Source: Daucus carota subsp. sativus
Taxonomy: Eukaryota; Streptophyta; Magnoliopsida; Apiales; Apiaceae
DNA length: 64,000 nt
Assembly: GCF_001625215.2 (NCBI RefSeq)
Contig: NC_030388.2
Span: 25,656,558 to 25,720,557 of the forward strand
Direction: 5' to 3'
Under the pieces are notes generated by a model. It was given only the letters and a program-made list of their open reading frames with translations. It was not told where the DNA came from and did not search any database. Made by a program: the position numbers and the translations under genes. Below, in pieces: positions 1,801-63,313 of this stretch (its first letter is position 1; each line of letters starts with the position of its first letter).

Positions 1801-3135
1801 TCAGTTGTGTCCGCCAATGCCTCCGCCGCCACCACCTGCACCGCCTCCACCACCACCACCACCTGCACCGCCACCAAAACCACCCCCAAAGCCACCTCCT
1901 GCACCTCCGCCTATTCCTCCTCCAATTCCACCACCTTTACCGAAACCTCCTCCACCCCCAATGCCGCCACCTTTGCCTACACCTCCTCCAAAACCACCAC
2001 CCTTACCAAATCCTCCACCAGCTCCCCCACCATTGCCTGTGCCCCCGCCAATCCCTCCACCTTTACCAATACCACCTCCAATGCCACCTCCTCCGCCAGC
2101 ACCTCCACCAAGACCACCACCTTTTCCAATCCCTCCACCAACACCACCTCCTTTTCCAATCCCTCCCCCAACACCACCTCCTTTTCCAATCCCTCCACCA
2201 ACACCACCTCCTTTTCCACTCCCTCCGCCAACACCTCCCCCTACACCACCACCTTTTCCAATCCCTCCGCCAATGGCACCTCCTTTTCCGGTCCCTCCAC
2301 CTACACCACCACCCTTGCCATATCCTCCACCAACACCACCACCCTTGCCACTACCTCCTCCACCACCACCACCTTTACCAAACCCTCCTCCGCTACCTCC
2401 TCCTTTACCAATACCACCACCTAAACCACCACCCTTTCCATGCCCACCACCCACTCCTCCTCCAATACCACCACCTTTTCCACCGCCTCCTCCAATGCCA
2501 CCACCTTTCCCGCCTCCTCCTCCAATGCCACCACCAACTCCTCCACCTTTCCCTGTTCCGCCCCCGACTCCTCCACCACCACCTTTTCCGATACCTCCTC
2601 CTACACCACCCCCAAGTCCCCCACCCTTACCAACTCCTCCACCTACACCGCCACCCTTACCAACTCCTCCACCTACACCGCCACCTTTTCCTATTCCTCC
2701 ACCTACACCGCCACCTTTACCTATTCCTCCACCTACACCACCACCCTTACCAATTCCTCCACCCACACCACCACCTTCTCCACCCCCAATCCCTCCACCC
2801 TTTCCAGTGCCACCACCAAATCCTCCACCACTTCCACCTCCAAATCCACCACCACTTCCCCCTCCAAATCCGCCACCGCTTCCACCACCTCCTCCACCTC
2901 CACCTCCAAATCCGCCACTGATTCCCCCTCCACCCCCAAAACCACCTCCAAATCCGCCTCCACTACCACCTCCAAATCCTCCACCAAAACCACCTCCCTT
3001 GCCAACACTCAAGTTCTTTTCTTCCTCAACACCATCAGCCCTCACATCCCTAGCAAAAACTACATGACTCACTACAAGAACATGAAGACAAAGCAAAGTC
3101 AAGACACTCACTCTCATAAAACCAACACGACCCAT
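1801..3135 (-). CDS. Glycine-rich secreted (cell-wall type) protein, 444 aa
   Basis: This intron-less gene encodes a signal peptide followed by an almost pure glycine repeat. The chosen ATG (3135) opens with an Arg-containing n-region and a hydrophobic core (VSVLTLLCLHVLVVSHVVFA), with likely cleavage before RDVRADG. A short charged linker follows (about residues 29-45), then roughly 400 residues of GGG-x-GKGGG and GGG-x-GGG units. Such class I glycine-rich proteins are usually exported and build or plasticise the cell wall; that role is inferred from family. An upstream in-frame ATG at 3198 lies only 10 bases from a TATA box (3209-3216), so it is unlikely to be transcribed; the ATG at 3135 fits better. 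The complementary strand is also open in several frames (Pro-rich), an effect of GGN/CCN composition. The repeat array may vary in length between haplotypes. Confidence 0.85.
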   Translation of the reverse strand: MGRVGFMRVSVLTLLCLHVLVVSHVVFARDVRADGVEEEKNLSVGKGGGFGGGFGGGSGGGFGGGFGGGGGISGGFGGGGGGGGGSGGGFGGGSGGGFGGGSGGGFGGGTGKGGGIGGGEGGGVGGGIGKGGGVGGGIGKGGGVGGGIGKGGGVGGGVGKGGGVGGGVGKGGGLGGGVGGGIGKGGGGGVGGGTGKGGGVGGGIGGGGGKGGGIGGGGGKGGGIGGGVGGGHGKGGGLGGGIGKGGGSGGGFGKGGGGGGGSGKGGGVGGGYGKGGGVGGGTGKGGAIGGGIGKGGGVGGGVGGGSGKGGGVGGGIGKGGGVGGGIGKGGGVGGGIGKGGGLGGGAGGGGGIGGGIGKGGGIGGGTGNGGGAGGGFGKGGGFGGGVGKGGGIGGGGGFGKGGGIGGGIGGGAGGGFGGGFGGGAGGGGGGGGAGGGGGGIGGHN

Positions 3136-3208
3136 CTTTAACGTCAGTATCAACCTCGAACTGAGTGAACTACACACTGATATTGAATTTACAGCCATCA
3201 CCGGTGTC

Positions 3209-3216: not shown

Positions 3217-4772
3217 GAGGCTAGAAAATCCTAAATATCCGATTGGTCTATTCTAAATCATGTTACATGCAATAAATACTTTCAACAACTAACTGCTATC
3301 CACAATGACAATGAATGCTAAAACTACTGCACCTCTGTTATGGAGCATATATTACCACCATTTGCTTTCACATGGCATCACTAAGTACCACACTGGCCTG
3401 TTTTACTGGTAATCAACAGCATCTACACAACTTAAGTAATTGTGCCTAAATATAATGTACCTTCCAAAAGTACACTGACTCTGAGCATTCAGTCTAGTTT
3501 CTAAATTTTTTTAACCGAAAAAGTTACTGAAAAATTTAAGTGACAAGATATACTGTAACAGTGAGATATTATTCTTTCAGTTCATCAGGTGTTTCAAAAT
3601 TAATGTAATAATGAGGCAGTAACATATTTGTATAATTAATAAAGGTTTATCATGCATGTATATAGCTAGCTACTTAACATCACAATAATATTTATATAAT
3701 TATATTCTCAGCTTGTGTATATGTACAGTTTATAAGCTTGTTAGATAAAGAGATCAAGATCTATCTAATAGATAAAGAAAAAAAAATTACTGGGGGGTTG
3801 TAAGTTGTAACCATGTGCATGGTAGATTTGAATTTAATGTTTACGTGAATGCACTAGACATTGTTGATATGTCAACCATCAATTGTTCATTAAGGTGGCT
3901 ACAAGACAATAATTATAGGAAGAAAAAATATATGTACAAGGCCATGTACAATTGTTGAGTGAGATGCTTTTCTAAACCTATTTTACACAAATATAACCAA
4001 GAAGAGGTCGTTTCTAAAAGGTATCAATTCAACTTGGTGCTTTGATTAGAACCTTAAATAACATATAATTAATATTTGCTACGACTTGCTACATATTAAT
4101 TGGTCGGTTAACTATCTGCTATACACTTGTAGAAAACTGATTGATATATTTATGTGTGAGGAAGATACATTAAACGTGAAAAGAGGGTGTGCAAATCACT
4201 ATCATAATTAATGATCCTTGGATATAAGTAGTTTTGAAAAAGAAATATTACTCAAATTAATCGTATAAATGTATAGCGTTATTAACATAGTTTGTTTCAG
4301 AAAAAAAAATAACACAATTATTTACTCCATATATAAGCACTGTGACCTCTATGCAAGTACTAATATAATTTTACTCGAAATAAAGATATCTAGTGCATAT
4401 CGTTTTTGCCGGCGACAGCCGACAGTTAAAAAGACGTGATCTTTCCAAATGAACTGAAATTATAAGCTCCCTCAAGAGAAGTGCATCTGATCAGGCTAAC
4501 GACAGTTGTATAAGAAGATCCCATCATCTAATGTTCGTATATCATGGTGAAAGACTGAAAGTTATATCACAATTATACAACAAGAGTCGGGGCAGATTAA
4601 CTACGAATCAGATTATATAATCCAACATGTAGAAACTAGATTCTGCCTCAAACCTGTATTTCTGCCAATATGAGAAACCAATTTGCTGAAACTGACACAA
4701 CCAAATCCTCAGGAGGAGTTGCAACTATAAAGTATATGAGGTTCATAAATCCTATCATCATGAACTATGTGT
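3217..4772. other. Intergenic: upstream of the glycine-rich gene, downstream of the GTE gene
   Basis: This stretch of about 1.5 kb is AT-rich with short A and T runs. I see no coding sequence, tRNA or clear transposon ends. It should hold the distal promoter of the glycine-rich gene on its left and the 3' UTR and terminator of the GTE gene on its right. Confidence 0.5.
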
Positions 4773-7700
4773 TCATTTCTTGCTTCTTTTTTGGGATGAC
4801 TTGGCAAGAGCATCATATATCTTCCGTTTGTTATTGTTGTTTTGGTGGGAGTTGTTGCCGCCCATGCTTGCTGAACTCTTACCGTGAAACTGCATAGCAC
4901 CCTTCACGAAAAACTTTAATTTCAATAATGTGGACTCACTCTGCATAAAAATAGACAATCAGCAACACAGCTCTATAAACGTGCTTAAAATAGTTTTATA
5001 ACATCAAACCATTAAACCAAAGAAAAGATTACCAGGGAATCAATGTCAAGGTCCACCTCTCGACTAGTTGCATGGAAGTTTGGGTAATCATGCGAAACAA
5101 TTAGTAGTGCATTGTCAAGATCTTCAGGTGATAAACTTGTCAGAGCTGTACTGAGCTTCTTTTTCTCTTCAGTTGACATTCTCCTGTAAACGTCGTATAA
5201 ATTAAGCTTGGTTGCAGCCAGTATGCTAAATAAGTATATGATAGATCACACAGAATACTTCCAAATCGATGATCAATGGTCACTAAAGCCTGTCCAAAGA
5301 TAACTACAGCCAGTGAATTTTGAATTACAATTACAACTGGTGACAAATGATTTCAAATGATTAAACATTAAATGAGCCTTCCCTAAAAGGATATATAGGC
5401 TTACAAAATTAGTGAGAACCATATATATTGCAAACAGGTTCATGATGCCTACAGTATTATTGTAAAGGTTATTACTCCAGCAAAAGTACTGGGTCACTTG
5501 ATAAGCCCAAGTGATTTCTAATAAACGGTAGAAAAGTTTAAGATTCATAGAACATGCAAATGTCAGTCTGAAGGCCATTAGTGGGGCTCATAGTTGTAGA
5601 GGTGAGCCTAGACTTTGACCTAGGCAAAAGTACATTTTTCTGTAGCACTTGAATTTCCCCTTGCGTAAGGTGAGGCTCAACAGGCACGCGCCTGATCCTG
5701 GGAGGTGGTGCGGAGGCAAAGGCGAGAGAAGTGAGTCACTCACCTAACTTGTCTTCTTCTTCTTCTTATGCTGTTTTATTAGCCTTCTCTTTCGGCTGTT
5801 TCATCTCGAGGTTTTTCTAAAATTAGAAATTGCTGACGATTACTTGCCTCATTCCAGTCAATACGAATGTGTCCGTAAAAAAATAAATACTTAATATTTA
5901 AGTTGTATACAGTCCTACTCCAGTACAAACATCCTTAAATAAAAACTAAAATAAAACATTTCCAAATCACATCGAAATATAGCACATATAGTATGCAAAT
6001 TGATCCTTAAGAGATGAAGAAAATTACAATAAAGTCAAATTTCAAAAAAAAAAAAAAAAACTCACCGATGGAAAGGAAAAATCATATTAGAAACGGAGGG
6101 GATCATATGTGGGACGGTGTATCTTTGTGTACAGTGACTTCTAGGGACCAGGCCATTAGATTAGATTTATCTAAGAGTTTAGATAAGTTTGTAGTTTTCA
6201 TTTTAATTTTGGTTTGTATTTTAAGCAATTGCCTATATATAAACAAAAAATTCGCATACGTTACATATTTCACATTCAGCTACATATGCACTCCTCACTT
6301 CAACAAGGCTCCTAACTCAGCTTAGTCTCGCTTGGCCTCGTGTTGTTAGCAAATGCTACCACTCCGCATAGGAGGCTATTGGAATTATATTTCAGGTCAT
6401 GGCAATGTATGGTTTAGACAATGGTGGATCCAAAAGTCAAATGGAGGGGTGATGGTGATTTCTGAATGGAACCAATATCAATGATATTAAATTAGTTTTA
6501 CAATAATTACTTACGGGCTGGCTAACCTGTGCCCTCACAGGTTAAGGTGTATTTAATACAACTGTTTGTGGTTGACAGTTGTACTATAGTTACTTTTCAT
6601 TCGTTCAAACTCTACTAATTACTATTTTCTTTTTCATCACCTTCCAACACTTCACTTTGATGGTTACTTTTCTAATTTTTATTTTTTTACCCACCACATT
6701 TAATTTTATTAAGTTTTATAAAAAAGCATGCAGAATAAAAGATTTATTTTAGTATAATAATCTATACCCCATTCTTGCATTTTTTATAACTGGAAAATAA
6801 ACAAGTATGTCTATAAAAAATATAAATTGATTTCATCCCACAAATAAAGCGAGACCCATTTTCTAACTAAAATTAGTATTAAAAAATATAAATGATTATA
6901 ATTTTATCATTTATATTTTTTGATATTATTAAAAGAATAAAAATTCATCAATTTATTATTAAATATCAAACTGGCTAATTTTAATTAGAAGGCTAATTTA
7001 GTTAGAAAATTAGTGTGCATGCAAGGGGGCCTCGTTATTATTTGTGGGATGAAATCAATTTATATTTTTTATACACATATTTGTTATTTTTTAGTTATAA
7101 AAAAAATGCAAGGATTGGGTATAGACTATTATATTAAAATAAATGTTTTACTCTACATGTTTTTCATAAAAATAAGTAAGACTAAATGTGGAAGTTAAAT
7201 ATATAAAAATTAGAAAAGTAAACGTCAAAGTGCTGGAAGGTGGTGAAAAAGAAAGAATTAGTAAAGTTTGAAGGAATGAAAAGTAACTCTGGTACAACTG
7301 TCAACCACAAGCAGGTGTATTAAATACACCCTAACCTGAGCCAGCCCGAATTACTTATGGTATATAAGAAAATATATCAATAATATTAAAATCTAATGAA
7401 ATGACAAATAAGCTCCACGATTTACTAATGAAATGATCTAGGGGCTGCCATATATCAAACTAGTGATGTTGATCCAGAGCAAGGAGATAAAAAAAATAGA
7501 TGGTTCAGATTTTTGCTTCTACTGAAAGAAAAATCTTGTTAGATTTTATTGGCAAAGAACCTGGACATCTGGAGATTGACACCGACTAGAAGTCTGATAA
7601 CTGTACATATGTATTCATTGTTATTATTAAACTCTGCATTTAGATTTTTGTTTTTTGACATCATCAAATAAGAAACTTGTACATATAGTTGGGGGAGATT

Positions 7701-10700
7701 ATTATATGTATATTTGATGATATCGGAGTTTTCTCGGAAGATGAAGAACAAAGTTTATTCTGTGATCCGTGTTTAACAGCTGCTAACTACATCAGAGTTT
7801 GCCATCAGAGATTATTCTTATCAGAGTCTGTCAAAACTGGTTTTCAGAAGCTGATTGATTGTGTTTGAAGAGACATGTCGGTTTCGGGACTTCGATAACT
7901 ATTAATTATAGGATATGTGTTGTAATGCTTATTCATGTATATATCAGATTTGAAATTGATAGGGTAGCTGTACATTATATAAGCACAAATCAGATTTATG
8001 TGTTGATTTACATAGTTATCATTCGTAACATGACAGCTCTCAATATATCTGTTCATCCTTTGAAATAGTAGTTCTTATTCAATGTACACAGTATTTATCA
8101 GTTAATATAAAGACTATTTTGATTCAATTGTGTTATAATTTGATTTAATTGTTATCACTGTATTCAACCTCCCTTCTGCAGTGGATTAAAAGCCTGACAT
8201 TACTTCATACCTCAACTCGTAACAAGTAACTATGAATCCTTGTTGTTTCTCAAAATCATGAATTTTGTAAGTTGTGGTTGCTTCTTCCTCTCATTTCTAG
8301 GCATACAAGCAACTGCAGCAAAACCTCATATTGAAATTTATTGAATAACACGTGTGTATATATGCTAGATGCATCTCGAATGGTGATGGGACCTCAATGC
8401 ACGTTGCTTGTTCTATGTATCGTAAAATGGTTTCATATTGTCTTTGAAAAAAAAAAAAAAAACATGATCTAGAGGCAGCGAAAAGAAAATAGACATATTT
8501 GGTCATTCCGTGAGAAAATATCTGGTTACACAAACTTACCTAGTAAATTATCATCCGAACTATCGTACTTATATTTATCCGGAAAAATTGATGTGTTTGG
8601 CTGAAAGATGAAAACACATACGAATATAAGGAATTAATTAGCTAATGATCAATTTAAAATAGTTGGATTACGGCGACTACGATGACGTAACTAAAACACA
8701 ACATGCAAGAAAAAAACAATAAACTCTACATGACAGAACTTACAGGATTTTTTTGGATTTATAGGGTGAATCATCTAACAATAGTGTGTTGGATTCATTA
8801 AGATCTCCAATAACCTTTTTCTAAACTCAGAATCCTCCCAAAGTTTTTTTTATTTCCATTAGGAACACAGGTTTATCTTTATTCCCCGGGACTTTGACAC
8901 CTATATTCGTATAATGTTTTACATCATGCATAAACAATTATCAACATATATTCGGGATGATAAATCTGAAATAGCTAAAGATCAAACATCTGAATAGGGA
9001 GAAACAAACTCTAGTGCTTACTTGAGATGACAAATCTTTGAAAAAAATTGGAAACGTAAACAACCTACTCATTGAAAAGCCAACTTTGACTTTTAATTAT
9101 TTTCGAAAACATAGTCAAGAATCGGGTCTGAATTAATCATACAATGATGCTGTAAAAAATTTACAAAGTTAAATACGGAGGTGTATATTCCATAGAGACA
9201 CAAAAATATCCAAATTACAAGAAAACACATACTTTAATCTCAATGACCATACGCCTGCATTAAATCTCTCATAACGAAATTCTAGAAAATCATCAACATG
9301 AGGTCTCTTAAAAACTAACAAAAAAGGGTAGTTAAGTTAGAAATACCAGATCAAAAGGTTGATTTGACTTTATTAAAAAAAATCATATAAATTTTACCTT
9401 GTTTTATGGCTAATTATCTTGTATTGCTTAGATAGAAGTGAGGACCTAACTATATTTTCTAAGATGATATCAACAAAAAGGCCATTTACATCAAGGATAA
9501 GAGTTTTTTTTTGTGAAATAGCTTGAATCATCAACAAACTCTGACCGCTTCTTTCTCTGATATTATTTTACTTGATTTTTTCTGAACAGAGCAATGATCC
9601 TGAAGACCAGACATGAAACACTTAACAGGTACAAAGAATTTATCACATGATACCCTTGTGTTCATTAATATTATATATATATGAAGTAGGACAATTTTTT
9701 TTACATGATATCATGTGATAAATTCATTGCCCTACTTCATTTATATATAGTATTAATGAACACACGGATATCATGTTATGAATTCTTTGTATCTGTTAAG
9801 TGTTTAATCCCTGATGTTCAGGATCATTGCTCTGTTCAGGAAAAATCAAGTAAAATAATAACAGAAAAAGAAGCGGTTAGAGTTTGTTGATGATTCAAGC
9901 TATTTCACAAAAAAAACTCTTATCCTAGATGTAAATGGCCTTCTTGCTGATATCGTTTTAGAATATATAGTGAGGTCCTCACTTCCATCTAAGCAAATAC
10001 AAGATAATTACAATTAGCCATAAAACATGTAAAAATTATATTAAAAGTTTTGTAATCAAGTTAATTCCACTTTTTGATATGCTAATTTTAACTTAGCCAC
10101 CCTTTTTTGTTAGTTTATAAAAGGCCTCACGTTGACGATTTTCTAGAATTCTGCTATGAGAGATTTAACGGAGGCATATGGTCATCGAGATTAAAGTATG
10201 TGTCCACCCTTTTCTTGTAATTTGAATATCATTATATGGAATATACACCTCCATATTTAACTTTTTAAATTTTTTATAACATTACTGTATGGTTAATTTA
10301 GATCCGGTTCTTGACTCTGTTTTCGAAAATAATTAGAAGTCAAAGTTGGCTTTTCAATGAGTAGGTTGTTTACATCTCCAATTTTTTTCAAGATATTTGT
10401 GAGTTCAACTAATCATTAGAGTTCGTTTCTCCTAGCTATTCAGATTTTTGGTCTTTAGCTATTCAGATTTATCATCCCGAATATATGTTGCAAATTGTTT
10501 GTGCGGGATATAAAACATTGTACTAATACAGGTGTCAAAGTCCCGAAAAATAAAGATAGACCTGTGTTCCTAAAGGAAATAAAAAAATCTGAGAGGATCT
10601 TGAGCTTTGAAAAGGTTATCGGAGATCTTAATGAATCCAACACACTATTGTTAGATGATTCACCCTATCAATTCGAAAAAATCTTGTAAGTTCCATCATG

Positions 10701-13700
10701 TAAAGTTTATTGTTTCTGCATGTGTTTTAGTTACATCATCATAGTTATCATAATCCAACTATCTCAAATTGATCATTAGCTAATTAATTCCTTACATTCG
10801 TATGTGTTTTCATCTTTCAGCCAAACACATCAATTTTTCCGAATACATACACGTACGATAGTTCGAATGATAATTTACTAGGTAAGTTTGTGTAACCAGA
10901 TATTTTCTCATTGAATAACTAAATATGTATAATAATCCATCCCTATTGTGTCATTGTGTAACCTGATATCTATCTATGTAGATAATAGTTTGATAAATGA
11001 TTATCTCCAGTTTGCTTCTAATTGTAGGAGATGGGGAGATCTTCGAGTGTACCTTGAAAAACTATCCTCGACTCCTAATGTCCAAGAATTGTTAAGCAAA
11101 ATATGTTCTCACAAGAGTCGAATATTCTCACAGAAGTCAAATACAAGTAATACCGCAAAAGATTTAAAGATCAATGAGACTTTTGAAAGGAACTTTAATG
11201 CAAAATCCAATAAATCAGCTTAAGCGGATTATTAAAAGGCTCATCCGTGAGAAAGCTAGCTTCGTAGACGCTTCCAACAAGCTGCCAAAAAAAATCGTAC
11301 TTTAATTTTGACTTTGTATTAGTTCTTCACGCTAACTATCTTTTATTTGTTGGTTGACTGCTAGTAGGTCCTGTTTACTTGTTTGTTTGTAGTAGTACAC
11401 GGTCTATTTTCTTTTCGCAGGAGATCCCTCTAGTTTATGCTTCTCGATTTTTTTTAAGACAGTATGAAACCATTTTACAGGACAGGTATGAAGAGGAATC
11501 TAAGGCAGATTCTGATACATGGAACAAGCAACCTGCATTGAGGTCCCCGTCACCATTCGAGAAGCATGCATTTGGCATATATGATATATACAAATGTGTT
11601 AATCAAAAAATTTCAATACGAGGTTTTAGATGCAGTTGCTTGTATGCCTAGAAATGAGAGGGAGGAAGGAGCAACCACAACTTACAGAATTCATGATCTT
11701 GAGACACGGCTTACAGAATTCATGATATTGAGAAATAGCAAGAGTTCATAGTTATTTGTAAAATATTGAGCATATTGAGGTCAGAAGTAATTTGTATGTT
11801 TGAATTTAAAGGTTTATTTGTAGACATACCCTGCTCGACATAATTTTTTTACTTCAAGTACCTGCATTTCTGTTGTTGTACATAGATAATGTATTTATAG
11901 GTTGCTTGTTGAAGCCTATTGGTTACAATTGTAATTGTAATCAGTAGTCAGTACTTATGTTTGACAGTATCAGTTTGATAAATTTAGTCAAAAACATAAA
12001 AGCCCATAATTCAAATATCTTTAATTTTGTATCCAAGAATTAGGGTCCCCCATCAATATGGTAGAGATGGGTACAGAGTCAACAGATATGTAATATGTAT
12101 ATAAATAGATTGTGTAAGTCAGCTAGCCACCGCAATAATTAGATATTCAAAATATGTCAGCCCACCCTGCTGTCAGACACTTCATTACCATTTAAAATGC
12201 AGGGTGGCCCCTGAAATGCAAATTTAAGACTTTCTCTCTCTTTCTAAGACTCAGTGTAAAGTTCAGCCACCGGAATGCGACCAGCTCATTTTTAATAATA
12301 TTTGTTTAAGCTACAGCAATTTACCAGAACACAAAATTTCTACCCAATAAAAATCCAAGGTGGCAACTAGTGCTAATATACTGATACTTATCAAGGAAGG
12401 GTAGTGAAAAAAGCAGCACATTAGATTAGGGTATTAGACTGTCAAGAGGTACTTGGACACGACTATTTAAACAATAACAAAGCTAAAGCAGCAATGAATA
12501 TGAATAACCATGTCTCATTTACAAGCAAACAATAAACACCAGCCAATATATCAGTAATATACCACATATTTACTTCCCTAGCTCAGATTTTAATGCTGTG
12601 GGGCAGGGACCCTGCTGGATCTGTCCCTGGCCCCTGGGTGTATAGTACTGGAGCAAGGTGGGTTCTAAGATGATCCTTATTCCACCCAGTATAAATATCA
12701 TATCTACTTGATATATGCTTGTATTAAACTATACTAGCTTATATCCCGTCCAAAGCACAGGTAGCTTTTAACATATTATTTTATAATTTTGTTTTACTTT
12801 GATAACTTTTTACTAATTCTATTAATATTATTTTTTTGAATACAATTCTAATACTAACTTTGAGTTTTCTTATATAACAATTATAACGAGTTACTTTTTT
12901 GTAATTTGGGGGGATCGAACTCTGTTCAGTTTATTTTCGAGCAATATTTAATATGACAGTTTTGTCCCTGACGACCAACCATGTTAACTGCCTTAATCTA
13001 ATTATACATAGGATAGGATATAATACAAACATATTTTGTTTATGTTCAATATGTATAAAGTTTTGGGTCAGTACAGTGCATATATCTAGTAAACTCTTAA
13101 GATTCAAGGCAGATTTGGATATTGATCCAAAAGAAGACAGCAGATTTTATTACTGATCTAAAATGAGACGGCAGATTTAGGTGCAAAGTCGGTTTGAAGG
13201 ACAAACTGGTAGAAAGGGTTCTCTAGACCATATCAGCTTCTGGAAACCCCGGAAAAGCTGCTGTAGAAGATCCTAATTCTACATAAGCCATTCTAACCAC
13301 TAATTCAGGTCCGTATTCACTAGGCCAAATGTACAACTCATAATCAGCTTCTGAAAACCCCGGAAAAGCTGCTGTAGAAGATCCTAATTCTAAAACAGGC
13401 CATCCTAGCCACTAATTCAGGTCATATTCACTGGGAGAACTCATAAGACCTTTTCCTTTGATTTTTATAACACAAATGAAATCAATGAGACACAGATATA
13501 ACTAGAGTTGTCTATAAAGCTGAGTCGGAAGTAGTTGAAAATTAAAAAGTGCAAGAATAAACCTGCACTTTTGAAGCACCATATCTCTTAGTTCTTCCAG
13601 ATCCCTATCAACCTTTTCCAGCTAGAAAGAATATTTATATGAGTTGCACATCCAAAAGTTATTGTGGTATGTGCAAGTTTATGACCAGCTAGGAAGCACT

Positions 13701-16700
13701 GACTCGGGTACGGCGACACGGGACACAGGACACGGGATACGGGGATTCGCCAATTAGCAAAGAGTCCTGGATACGGGACACGGCAAAAAATAAATAGTAT
13801 TTATAAAATATATAATTTATATATGTTGAATATTAAACAACTTCACACTTGAACTCATTGTCCCACTCGTATATTTATATAATCAAGTGATCTTTAGCAA
13901 ATAGATATAAAGAATGTATTTATATATAGGCTTTTGCGTATGTATATCAGATTACATGATGAAAAACATGGGAGAGATAGCTAAATAATTATATACATAT
14001 AGAATCTGTATACATATAAAAGACGTCTGGTATTAGGCTATAAACATTACTGGGCCTTTTTTAAAGTTGGGCAGAGGTTTTGGTTGCATGTCGGCTGCAT
14101 TTGCGTTCCGACACGCCACATGGCGTATCGGATACGTACTCAGCCGTGTCGGTGCCGTGTCCCCGTATCAGCCGTGTCCGACACGCATACGGCAGCCTTT
14201 TTGCCGTGTCCGTGCTTCCTAGATGACCACATATTAGTTTACCTCAATGTTTAGATCCTTTGAGATCCTGGCATGAGTAGCTTCCTGAGCTAGCTGCATA
14301 TCTATCTGAGCCTCTGCTTCTTCCTCTTTTCGATTTTTCTCCTATAAGTCATAGTTACAAATTAAAAAAGATCTTACAATTAAAATTAAAAAACTTAAAA
14401 AACCAGATACTTAAAACACACCTTCTAACCATCTAAAAGAAGAGATCTAAAATCTTGATAAATAAATAAAAACATGGTAATACTCCAAGAGGACAAAGCT
14501 GAAATCTTAATCATCTGAGAGAAAATGTTTACCTCTTCATCTACTTTTGGCAAAAGTTGCAACCATTTCTCATCAACTTTTCCCAGCAAAGTTTTTGCCA
14601 TTACGTGAACATCCTCCCTTTCATCATTATATTTCATTGCATTCTTAAATATCAATCTCACATCTGCATATATTTCTCTGACGCTTTTATATACACTGCA
14701 ATCCTTAGCCTCCATTTTGTTTTTGATTGTACTGAAGTCCATCGGCTTTTCAATCACCTAGTATAAAGTATCAAAAACACACTATCTAAACAACTAGTGA
14801 TGAAAGAATTATGGAAAGCTAATTAGTGGGTACAGATAGGTAGTGTGACTACTGGCACGTTCAAATAACGGACAACCAGAATAGGAGTAAAAGGAAAAAA
14901 AGGTTTACATCATAGTAGTCGTGCAAACCAAGACCTACAACATCTACAGGTTGCATAAATGGCCCTGCCCATTTGTGCTGAGTAATCTGAGAAGTAAAAC
15001 AAGGCATGTCAAATAACCTTTTTCATATTTTGGATACTGATCCACACACATAATCTGTTTAAACTCTTCATAACAATATAATAGAGTTATAAAGAAGCTT
15101 CAGCTCATAGATACAAGTCCACTTATTTGTTCCCAATCTTTAAACCTTTCATATAATCAGCGCATACAATAGATATCATAACCACCTAGTTAAACCGAGA
15201 CCAGTATCAAGTCATATACTTCATCATTTACGAAATCTAAATAATCTTCACTTATAAAAGCCCCTTTGTACAGATAAAAGGAAACAACAAGATTTATGAT
15301 ATTTCTTGATCATATTAGTTAAAACTAAATGTACTTGTATTAATTTAGTAAAACATGGAATACAAAAGTCAATATGTTCTAATGTATTATCATTAAATAT
15401 ACCGTGTATATATGTACAGACCACATAAACATCAACCTGATTTTGTACAAGTTATCATCTTCAATATGCCCCTTTTATTGACTACACTGGAACATTAAGA
15501 ACGTATTTTAGTTGTCTGACCACTTAACTTGTTGCTTTCATCATTTCAATGCATAGCGAGTCACCCCAGAAACAAGTAGTTTTTGAGGCCAACATAATAC
15601 CGTCCTTTCTTAAACAGCAACTTAGTGAACCAACCTATATATAGTACAAAAGCAGCAATGTGTGTTATGTCTCTCTGACTGCCTTATTCTAATGTAATTT
15701 TATGCAATTCGACCATTCCAAATTATGTAATGCCCAAATATTTTACTCTTATTTTAATATAAAAACGAACAAATGAAGACAAACCTTACCCATTCTTTAT
15801 GCTTCAGAGTACAAAAAATAGGAATTTCTATATTTTAATAACAGAGTACGTATATGAAAGATAATGTCAGGGTGAAATTCTTACGGAATTCGCGTATTTC
15901 AAGAGAAACTTGCTAATGACCACTACTTGCCTGTCTTATAATTGTGCCAAACTGGCGCATAAGCTCTTGCATTCTCTTAGTGGCAGCTGACTCCCTACGC
16001 GATGCATCCAGTTGCCTCTTTCTGAAGCTAGCGAGATGCTTATCCTTGTCCTTTTCCTTCGGAATTGAACTACCTTTAGAAGTATGTAGTTGCTTTTTAC
16101 TTGAGTAAAATTGCTCTACTTTGTTAAGTGTTTGCTCAAGCTGCGATAAATAAGATAAGGCATTTTTAGCCATAAGATATAGTTTATACTTGCAGCAAGT
16201 TAATTGACACAACGTATCTAGAGACTATCATCGTGCAGGCAATTGGAACGGTATTTTCTCAACTCGTTTTAATTATAGTAGGCTATATATCCAGCAGACA
16301 ATGAGAAAAGTGTATTATAAATGTATAAACTATTAAATATTAAACTGTACATTGGTATACCTAAAATCATGAACTAGCATCAAACGACAAAGTATAATAC
16401 AGAATAGTTAAAAAGAAAAAACAATTAAATTCATCTTCAGCATGTCTTTAAGTTCGATGAGCCCTAGCAGACATATATAAGACCCAGTCTGCTGGTCCTA
16501 TTATGGGTTGGTAACTGATTTTCAGAGATAATGATACATAAGCTAAGTGTATAACTATATTGAAAAATTGCTTAAATCTTTTTTTCTAAAATCTGAATTT
16601 TAATACAGCATTAGGAAAGAAATTTTAATAATAATAATAATAATAAAAGATATGATGCATGAAAAACAAGAGCAGTCTATATAGGTCATCCATAGCTTAC

Positions 16701-17470
16701 ACTTTTAAGCCAAACAGATTCCATAACAAATTAATTGAGAATTGGATAAGAGAACAAATCCCAAGATTACATGTTACTCCCTCCATCCCAAATTAGATGA
16801 GCTCATTGACTTTGGGCACGCACTTTAAAGTCCATTGACTGCATAGCTACATTACTTATTTTTAAAATTTTATTTTTGCAAATAAAAATTTAAATATGAA
16901 ATTTTCGTTTACAAAAAAAAAATTAAAAAATAAATTTAGGAACTAGACGGTCAATGCACCTCAAGTTACGTGCCTAAAGTCAACTAGCTCATCTAATTTG
17001 GGATGGAGGGAGTACTTGATCTATTAATATGGAAGCTCTCAAAAAGATACATCATATGACAACGAATTTACTAAACATAGAACAAATCACAAAAGTAATT
17101 AGCAAGGGACAAAACAGTGAAAGATAATAACAATCTGTTATCATCCAACAAATGCAGATACCTCCCTGCCATAAAAACTAAAACTAACAACTATAGTATC
17201 TTCAAAGCCTCAAATACGGCAAAGGTAAGGTACATGCTGATATACCTTAAACTGTGTGCAGCAGTCAAAGTCTTGCATAAACAGGGAATGTAAGAATAAT
17301 ATTTACAAACTTATAAGAACTTGTAATCGATGAATGATGATGCAAACCTGATCAACCTTCATGAACATATCATCAACACGTTGCCCAATATCCTCCACAT
17401 CGCTACCATTGACGTTCAAATTTTCTGCATCTGCTATTGTTTCTGGAATTAATGCATCCACAATTCCCAT
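4773..17470 (-). CDS. GTE1: GTE1/GTE6-type bromodomain-NET transcription factor, 370 aa, 8 coding exons
   Basis: Coding exons, in order: 17348-17470, 15931-16140, 14909-14986, 14533-14757, 14243-14341, 13563-13621, 5033-5183, 4773-4940. They total 1113 bases with phases that match at every junction. The protein has an N-terminal coiled region ([22 protein letters not shown]), a basic linker, and a bromodomain (about residues 100-205) with the acetyl-lysine Asn in NAMKYND. A NET/ET domain follows (MSTEEKKKL...[10 protein letters not shown]), then an Asn-rich tail ending in basic KRSKK. The family binds acetylated histones in the nucleus; Arabidopsis GTE1 (IMB1) promotes seed germination. The conserved WPF shelf reads GPF here. 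The intron after exon 2 has a GC donor (CAG|GCAAGT). A splice acceptor (TTCTTAATAG) just before the ATG implies a 5' UTR intron. Intron 6 is 8.4 kb. GTE1 and GTE6 cannot be separated by eye. Confidence 0.9.
6514..7348. mobile_element. Mutator-type foldback MITE, 835 bp, 9-bp target duplication
   Basis: The ends are CGGGCTGGCT and its inverted copy. The terminal inverted repeats run on, imperfectly, for several hundred bases; GGTGTATTTAATAC and TTGTGGTTGACAGTTGTAC are repeated in inverted orientation. The element is flanked by a perfect 9-base duplication AATTACTTA (6505-6513 and 7349-7357). A 9-bp duplication with long inverted repeats is typical of Mutator-like elements. No transposase is encoded, so the copy is non-autonomous. 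It lies in intron 6 of the GTE gene. Confidence 0.85.
8245..8470 (-). pseudogene. FAR1-related (FRS) fragment, left arm
   Basis: The minus strand keeps pieces of a FAR1-related protein: RQYETIL, then PSPFE, then sequence matching the CMPRNERE region in the other arm. A poly-A run and in-frame changes break it. FRS proteins derive from Mutator-like transposases. This is a relic and the inverted partner of the fragment at 11430-11751. Confidence 0.6.
8500..9570 (-). pseudogene. NIF-like (HAD/FCP-type) phosphatase relic, left arm
   Basis: This is the inverted counterpart of the phosphatase relic at 9880-11223. Near 8765-8900 the minus strand carries the [12 protein letters not shown] coding region and the preceding VFLKEIKK-type segment, with frame breaks. 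Near 9480-9530 it carries the [10 protein letters not shown] motif region. It lacks the exon encoding [10 protein letters not shown] that is present in the other arm. It is not expected to encode protein. Confidence 0.6.
9880..11223 (+). pseudogene. NIF-like (HAD/FCP-type) phosphatase relic with introns, right arm
   Basis: In order the plus strand encodes [16 protein letters not shown] (9905-9955, phosphatase motif I region), [19 protein letters not shown] (10130-10185), [20 protein letters not shown] and [20 protein letters not shown] (10530-10685), [18 protein letters not shown] (10830-10880) and [20 protein letters not shown] (11030-11095). These match the plant family of NLI-interacting-factor-like Ser/Thr phosphatases. 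Introns still separate the blocks, so the copy was captured as genomic DNA and is not a retrocopy. Frames are broken and the first exons are missing, so it is a pseudogene. Confidence 0.75.
11430..11751 (+). pseudogene. FAR1-related (FRS) fragment, right arm
   Basis: The plus strand reads [20 protein letters not shown], then [15 protein letters not shown], then in another frame [20 protein letters not shown] and [10 protein letters not shown]. This is the region just before the SWIM domain of FAR1-RELATED SEQUENCE proteins, with one frameshift near 11570. It sits directly downstream of the phosphatase relic and has an inverted partner at 8245-8470. Confidence 0.75.
12734..12762 (-). mobile_element. 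Helitron-like 3' terminus
   Basis: On the minus strand the sequence ends GGGATATAAGCTAG followed by T, as in Helitron 3' ends (CTRR then T). It closely resembles the terminus at 46817. The usual GTGC/GCAC hairpin is degraded here (GTGC paired with GTCC). The 5' end was not located; the element would extend to higher coordinates. Confidence 0.45.
13232..13432. repeat. Tandem duplication, about 110-bp unit, two copies
   Basis: The block starting ATCAGCTTCTGGAAACCCCG at 13232 is repeated from 13342 with few changes. Each copy ends in a TATTCACT motif. It lies at the upstream end of intron 6, about 130 bases from exon 6 of the GTE gene. No coding potential is seen. Confidence 0.85.
13689..14222. 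mobile_element. hAT-type MITE, 534 bp, near a splice donor
   Basis: Perfect 11-base terminal inverted repeats CTAGGAAGCAC/GTGCTTCCTAG are flanked by an 8-base duplication ATGACCAG (13681-13688) and ATGACCAC (14223-14230), with one mismatch. This fits hAT-superfamily MITEs. The ends are rich in CGGACACGG-type motifs and the middle is AT-rich. It makes up most of the 621-base intron 5 of the GTE gene and lies 20 bases from the donor site of exon 5. Confidence 0.75.
16777..17012. mobile_element. Stowaway MITE, 236 bp
   Basis: Terminal inverted repeats CTCCCTCCATCCCAAATTAG and their inverted copy are flanked by TA on both sides. This is the classic Stowaway (Tc1/mariner) MITE form. It lies in intron 1 of the GTE coding region (17347 to 16141). 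Confidence 0.9.

Positions 17471-58696: not shown

Positions 58697-63313
<4,617 letters not shown>

Follow-up and report, generated by a model that had tools for sequence, protein, structure and literature searches.

RESULTS

An inverted repeat within an intron of a GTE gene

The window analysed in this work is a 64,000-nucleotide stretch of the Daucus carota subsp. sativus genome situated inside a single 33-Mb contig (C8:25656558-25720557), and the element of interest is a long inverted repeat, composed of pieces of a NIF-type phosphatase gene and of a FAR1-related (FRS) gene, that lies within an intron of a GTE/BET bromodomain gene. The GTE gene is read on the minus strand, where a frame at 14428..14757 carries the bromodomain exon (Pfam bromodomain, E = 3.6e-13) and a frame at 5015..5245 carries the BET/NET exon (Pfam BET, E = 5.3e-12), the two domains occurring in the expected order. 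The 8,379-bp intron holding the repeat spans 5184..13562 on the same strand, with a donor (GCAG/GTTT) at 13562 and an acceptor (TTTACAG/GAG) before 5183, and its removal would join the frame as KCRRMSTEE. A sequence-only reading of this DNA had placed the repeat in a GTE intron, a location borne out by the bromodomain on one side, the BET domain on the other and the in-frame splice junctions. C7 carries a paralogue of the GTE gene, matching the BET query at 89%, with an intron of ~2.3 kb at the equivalent position; this intron aligns only in its exon-adjacent sequence, and therefore no empty site could be read in it.

Gapped local alignment defined a left arm at 8199..9707, with its coding sense on the minus strand, and a right arm at 9712..11791, with its coding sense on the plus strand, which are 89.5% identical in inverted orientation over 1,481 ungapped columns. 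BLAST of one arm against the other returned 1,248 columns at 86% identity with gaps counted (E = 0.0), placing the repeat far above chance level, and the two gene pieces face outward from its centre as had been proposed. The arms differ at 155 columns (101 transitions and 54 transversions; Kimura two-parameter distance (K2P) 0.114) and by 32 indels. This divergence of 10.5%, obtained from the arm alignment that had been suggested as a check, is spread evenly along the arms (variance/mean of mismatch density 0.5 in 14 bins). Misassembly in the form of a collapsed copy is judged unlikely because of this evenly spread divergence.

The centre and extent of the repeat differ from the earlier description. 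The spacer, given there as 41 bases and by an ungapped repeat finder as 30 nt, shrinks to a loop of ~4 nt (9708..9711, no strand) in the gapped alignment, which reaches 9707 and 9712, so that the arms nearly abut within a 14-nt palindrome, ACATGATATCATGT (9703-9716). The inverted pair itself stands, but its arms are unequal: the right arm has an additional 475 bp (10929..11403, plus strand), comprising the last NIF exon and a spacer and forming the largest indel of the alignment, and the FRS match continues beyond the end given previously, to 11835. A frame within the 475-bp stretch has related forms on C9 and C6, and deletion from the left arm would most simply account for its absence there. 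On the inner side of the right arm, a 23-nt direct repeat occupies 9707-9729 and 9767-9789, one copy lying at the exact centre of the inverted repeat, and may have been the starting point of the inverted duplication.

The same GTE intron contains a second inverted repeat (6474-6896 and 6947-7387), with arms 89.7% identical and ends of the GGGCTGGC type; a direct repeat of 9 bp, AATTACTTA, occurs at 6505 and 7349. Mutator-type target-site duplications are 9 bp long, and the features of this second repeat suggest a Mutator-type foldback or miniature inverted-repeat transposable element.

Gene pieces in the arms and their sources

Each arm was used as a DNA query against the 441-Mb genome (11 contigs), and the results given here refer to the best-scored candidates. 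These included a NIF-type phosphatase locus on C9 (80-88%) and an FRS gene on C4 (78-82%), together with matches to a more remotely related NIF gene on C6 (68-81%) and, over a short length only, to C3 (80% over ~80 bp). The right arm carries a NIF-type phosphatase pseudogene piece with retained introns at 9862..11133 on the plus strand, 80-87% identical to C9:26393986-26395305, and the corresponding piece of the left arm, without the last exon, was aligned at 8489..9554 on the minus strand. The FRS piece of the right arm (11450..11835, plus strand) aligns to nt 1482-1832 of the C4 FRS frame and extends 44 nt past the arm end, and its truncated counterpart in the left arm (8201..8450, minus strand) matches the same frame at 82% over 231 columns plus a 29-column piece. 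The stretch between the NIF and FRS pieces (11134..11449, plus strand) and the segment at 9712-9861 had no genomic relatives among the candidates scored except the left arm of the window. Among the best-scored candidates, the joined NIF and FRS pair was found at no third place in the genome.

The NIF assignment draws on several scores close to the curated Pfam cut-off of 21.8 bits. The right-arm frame at 10092-10217 scored 21.7 bits (E = 1.7e-4) and one of five pieces of the C9 locus 21.5 bits, both just under the cut-off; one of four C6 pieces, the homologous exon, exceeded it at 22.7 bits, and a left-arm match on 9172-9336 fell below it (E = 0.0089). Other scanned NIF-like frames of the arms, C9 and C6 had no Pfam NIF match. 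In a single comparison, the right-arm frame at 10459-10686 was 51% identical to an exon of the C6 NIF gene over 57 columns (E = 1e-16). Searches of the PDB gave a weak SCP1 match for the NIF piece (E = 0.16) in one search and no match in another, and no match for the C6 exon. The C9 locus consists of six stop-free exon-like pieces in NIF order, as judged by eye, several of them with recognisable splice signals. The short frames of the FRS piece had no family support in Pfam or the PDB; the assignment is instead confirmed through the C4 gene, whose frame runs for 740 codons without a stop (731 counted from the first ATG) and contains FAR1 DNA-binding, MULE transposase and SWIM domains in Pfam. 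On these comparisons with the NIF and FRS genes of the genome, which the sequence-only reading had recommended and which found relatives on C9, C6 and C4, the contents of the arms derive from two unrelated sources, the NIF-type phosphatase locus on C9 and the FRS frame on C4, in agreement with the gene families first named. No paper naming NLI interacting factor, FAR1, transposon and capture together was found in the literature searched.

A 29-bp tandem duplication at 11676-11733 occurs only in the FRS piece of the right arm, being found neither in the left arm nor in the C4 FRS gene. The C9 NIF locus (3994-7502, minus strand, of the extracted C9 stretch) has an upstream DUF1985-like frame, below the Pfam cut-off, and a ~80-bp tandem duplication near its fifth exon-like piece, and is possibly a chimeric or element-associated gene as well.

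Order of events

Because both arms contain both joined pieces, the inverted duplication took place after the chimera had formed and had acquired at least one nonsense change. The nonsense change, TGG to TGA relative to C9, is common to the two arms. A splice acceptor kept in C9 has been lost from both arms by different changes. With introns retained and the nonsense change shared, the alignments indicate inverted duplication of a chimeric pseudogene that had already decayed. An origin as a retrocopy was ruled out because introns with splice signals are retained. Since the FRS match runs past the repeat on the right side only, to 11835, the right copy exceeds the left in length, the latter having been truncated within FRS.

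Within the NIF part, K2P was 0.13 between the arms and 0.177 and 0.186 between the arms and C9, and three-way counts over 890 columns assigned 42 changes to the right branch, 49 to the left and 84 to C9 plus the stem, with 13 unresolved. In the FRS piece, 252 columns gave 9 changes on the right, 16 on the left, 18 on the C4 FRS side and 3 unresolved, with K2P values of 0.121 (right to left), 0.110 (right to FRS) and 0.170 (left to FRS). At a substitution rate of 7e-9 per site per year, the arm-to-arm K2P of 0.114 would date the duplication to ~8 million years ago, as an order of magnitude only.

Constraint and pairing between the arms

Differences between the arms fall at 12/174, 18/172 and 17/170 of first, second and third codon positions, and at 47/516 of exon-like columns against 108/965 of the others (p = 0.25); therefore no coding constraint is seen since the duplication. 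Of the 101 transitions, 54 preserve G-U pairing on the GTE-sense strand, which is no bias (p = 0.55). The longest perfect run between the arms is 48 nt, with a shuffle mean of 50 and an equal or longer run in 54% of shuffles. There were 210 perfect arm-to-arm 21-mers, compared with a mean of 141 in shuffles (p = 0.02, gap columns ignored), a mild surplus contrary to pure neutrality. A protected miRNA-like segment was sought along the arms and none was found, the mismatch density being even and the longest run at chance level, and a scan of 5000-14000 against Rfam returned no family at gathering score. The foldback thus contains neither a conserved short duplex nor a known family of the kind that would mark a MIRNA gene, and there is no good evidence for selection on the hairpin.

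Faster decay of CHG cytosines

C-to-T changes along the two arm branches were polarised with C9 and FRS as references. They affected 7/58 cytosines in CG, 13/82 in CHG and 24/520 in CHH contexts, CHG decaying faster than CHH (p = 0.0005) and CG also differing from CHH (p = 0.03). T to C changes in matched contexts had no comparable contrast (5/194 vs 17/978, p = 0.39). In the left arm alone the CHG contrast was 8/41 vs 12/260 (p = 0.002). Because CHG cytosines decayed faster than CHH cytosines, the simplest reading suggested by these counts is that the arms were once under non-CG methylation. Such a footprint fits silencing of the repeat itself and is no demonstration of hairpin small RNAs. 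In the three other foldbacks of the window, unpolarised changes summed to 6/18 in CG, 3/16 in CHG and 32/138 in CHH, with no CHG excess in these small numbers.

Hairpin potential and candidate targets

The predicted minimum free energy (MFE) of the repeat was -1984 kcal/mol on the GTE-sense strand and -1956 kcal/mol on the other; six dinucleotide shuffles of the GTE-sense strand gave -738 to -791 kcal/mol. On a GTE-sense transcript the right arm would be antisense to FRS and NIF mRNAs. It has perfect matches to 65 of the 2,203 21-mers of the C4 FRS frame, a match of small interfering RNA (siRNA) length to an intact gene elsewhere, with perfect runs of 56 and 48 nt, and lies within three mismatches of 242 of the 2,203; the left arm has 11 perfect 21-mers and 87 within three mismatches. 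A shuffled right arm had no FRS 21-mers at up to three mismatches. Against the exon-like pieces of C9, each arm has 6/474 perfect 21-mers, and 314 (right) and 259 (left) within three mismatches. Among the 145 perfectly paired 21-mers of the hairpin, perfect matches occur in FRS for 11, in the C9 exon-like pieces for 6 and in the C9 locus for 37. The 56-nt FRS run lies mostly opposite a 35-nt gap of the left arm and would for this reason be only partly duplexed. The proposal that candidate NIF and FRS targets exist elsewhere in the genome therefore has concrete examples, the C4 FRS gene and the C9 NIF relative, both with perfect 21-mers, and the raw material for action in trans is present, if modest.

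DISCUSSION

A chimeric pseudogene probably silenced in cis

The explanation we prefer, with a probability of about one half, is that a chimeric pseudogene in the GTE intron underwent inverted duplication and now forms a hairpin acting mainly in cis, through small RNAs and non-CG methylation, with at most a weak spill-over in trans. It starts from what the analysis established directly, namely the structure, the two sources, the order of events, the lack of constraint, the CHG decay footprint and the perfect 21-mer matches. An intron-bearing chimera of a NIF phosphatase piece and an FRS piece would have arrived in the GTE intron and undergone a head-to-head duplication starting at its 5' end, giving a near loop-less inverted repeat whose left copy was truncated inside FRS and probably lost 475 bp. 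Transcription of GTE pre-mRNA would then allow the arms to fold into a long hairpin, the dicing of which would most likely yield small RNAs whose action is chiefly in cis, the presumed present-day state being non-CG methylation of the intronic repeat. Any effect on the C4 FRS gene and the C9 NIF locus would be weak at most.

Several observations weigh against this explanation. The CHG signal amounts to 13 changes in total, is weaker in the right arm alone (5/41 vs 12/260, p = 0.065) and weaker again in unpolarised counts (CG 18/44, CHG 13/45, CHH 46/298; p = 0.03 for CHG vs CHH), and the comparison was made without any known-unmethylated control sequence. CHG methylation can, in addition, arise by routes besides hairpin small RNAs. 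As to the order of events, in the FRS piece taken alone the right arm is separated from the C4 gene by a smaller distance (K2P 0.110) than from the left arm (0.121), which slow change of a constrained C4 gene could explain.

If the hairpin sequence were simply spliced out and degraded with the intron, producing no meaningful small RNAs, the locus would be a relic in mere decay. The lack of coding constraint between the arms, a longest perfect duplex run (48 nt) matched or exceeded in 54% of shuffles, and transitions without pairing preference on the GTE-sense strand (54/101) are all as such a relic would have them, but the CHG footprint, a predicted MFE ~1,200 kcal/mol below the shuffles and the excess of perfect duplex 21-mers (210 vs 141, p = 0.02, gap columns ignored) are not, and we regard an inert relic as rather unlikely. 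The opposite extreme, in which small RNAs from a GTE-driven hairpin direct the cleavage of FRS and/or NIF transcripts, is judged still less probable. It could draw on the 65 perfect 21-mers and the 56- and 48-nt runs common to the right arm and the intact C4 FRS frame, on the 242 of 2,203 FRS 21-mers within three mismatches, on the 11 FRS and 6 C9 matches among the 145 perfectly duplexed 21-mers and on the antisense orientation of the right arm; it has to contend with arms already 10-16% diverged from their FRS and NIF relatives, with no sign of selection for pairing on the GTE-sense strand and with the incomplete duplex across the longest FRS run. Of the silencing interpretation offered by the sequence-only reading, host fragments of two families, the GTE intron, a long hairpin predicted from either strand and candidate targets were retained. 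An adapted silencer was not, given the absence of coding constraint, of a protected segment and of G-U bias (p = 0.55), and a nonsense change that predates the inverted duplication. A more elaborate version, in which a GTE promoter-driven two-gene intronic hairpin acts jointly on an FRS transcription factor and a NIF-type phosphatase to tune them through 21-22-nt small RNAs, as an early gene-linking RNA interference module with arms wearing toward a miRNA, is a speculation that we hold to be quite improbable.

Least probable of all, and in our view very unlikely, is a transposon with 1.5-kb terminal inverted repeats, either a Pack-MULE or a foldback element. Capture of gene fragments and an inverted structure are MULE-like, and the nearby intronic repeat at 6474-7387 is itself Mutator-like with the 9-bp direct repeat AATTACTTA; against this, the FRS sequence overruns one end only and no target-site duplication was found near the ends beyond chance-level matches. 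The best direct repeat at or around both ends was an 11-mer with two mismatches (8182/11801), and a low-complexity 10-mer lay far from the ends (7704/12093), both at chance level by our own estimate, with none listed in a check of up to 25 bases from the ends. No other copy of the joined unit and no repeat family for it were found among the best-scored candidates of the arm searches, which were source-like loci on C9, C4, C6 and C3. Between a maintained regulator and a decaying relic, the evolutionary tests favour the relic, most likely silenced in cis, which is the explanation given above.

Comparison with known systems

Inverted pairs of pseudogenes are already known as a kind; the present locus is a real example of the structure, with a putative silencing function. 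Mu killer in maize and the chalcone synthase inverted repeats of soybean reportedly silence in trans in genetic experiments. The carrot locus resembles them in being an inverted duplication with sequence of genes or elements located elsewhere, and differs in being decayed and in that its effect in trans is conjectural.

Rice pairs were defined as paralogous copies of a pseudogene lying within 2 kb of each other on opposite strands, with a stem >100 bp and a loop <2 kb, and with small RNAs mapping exclusively to the duplex as a further criterion (PMC2708354). Those described there have stems of 154-185 bp at 83% and 96% identity and produce small RNAs; for the first pair, many small RNAs fell on the duplex, and no small RNAs of the parent gene were detected (PMC2708354). 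With pseudogene features, arms at 8199-9707 and 9712-11791 that are 89.5% identical and a loop of ~4 nt, the present locus has the same anatomy, but differs from the described pairs in its 1.5-kb arms, near-zero loop, two joined source genes and intronic position (PMC2708354). As far as anatomy goes, it would be a larger, intronic, two-source member of that kind. In Arabidopsis Cvi-0, the VIM4-VIM2 pair is reported to consist of near-identical genes (99.86%) around a 50-bp centre, to produce siRNAs and to silence VIM1 in trans (PMC13213937). Like VIM4-VIM2 and PAI4-PAI1, the carrot locus is an inverted repeat of gene sequence with a short centre and homologous potential trans targets elsewhere; unlike VIM4-VIM2 it is 89.5% identical, intronic and made of pseudogene pieces, with silencing in trans only conjectural (PMC13213937). 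It also shares with the inverted-duplication origin of MIRNA genes, as outlined in PMC3237417, inverted pseudogene copies with parent genes as potential targets, and differs from MIRNA genes in that the arms lack a protected miRNA-like segment and that 5000-14000 yielded no Rfam match at gathering score. By this analogy, an early or abortive stage of MIRNA origin is plausible.

The locus could make silencing small RNAs, since one of its scraps still perfectly matches an intact FAR1-type gene over short stretches. Because relatives of both sources persist in the genome, this well-bounded natural hairpin offers a direct test of how much arm divergence (~10%) and target divergence (~10-16%) is tolerated before effective small RNAs cease. 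It also illustrates that large introns of ordinary genes can harbour decaying gene scraps, maybe silenced in place.

Other features of the window

Two more near-palindromic foldbacks are present in the window, at 16703-17044 (86% arm identity) and at 59541-60130 (83.5%). On the minus strand, 1801-3201 contains a long frame of 466 aa encoding a glycine-rich repeat protein.

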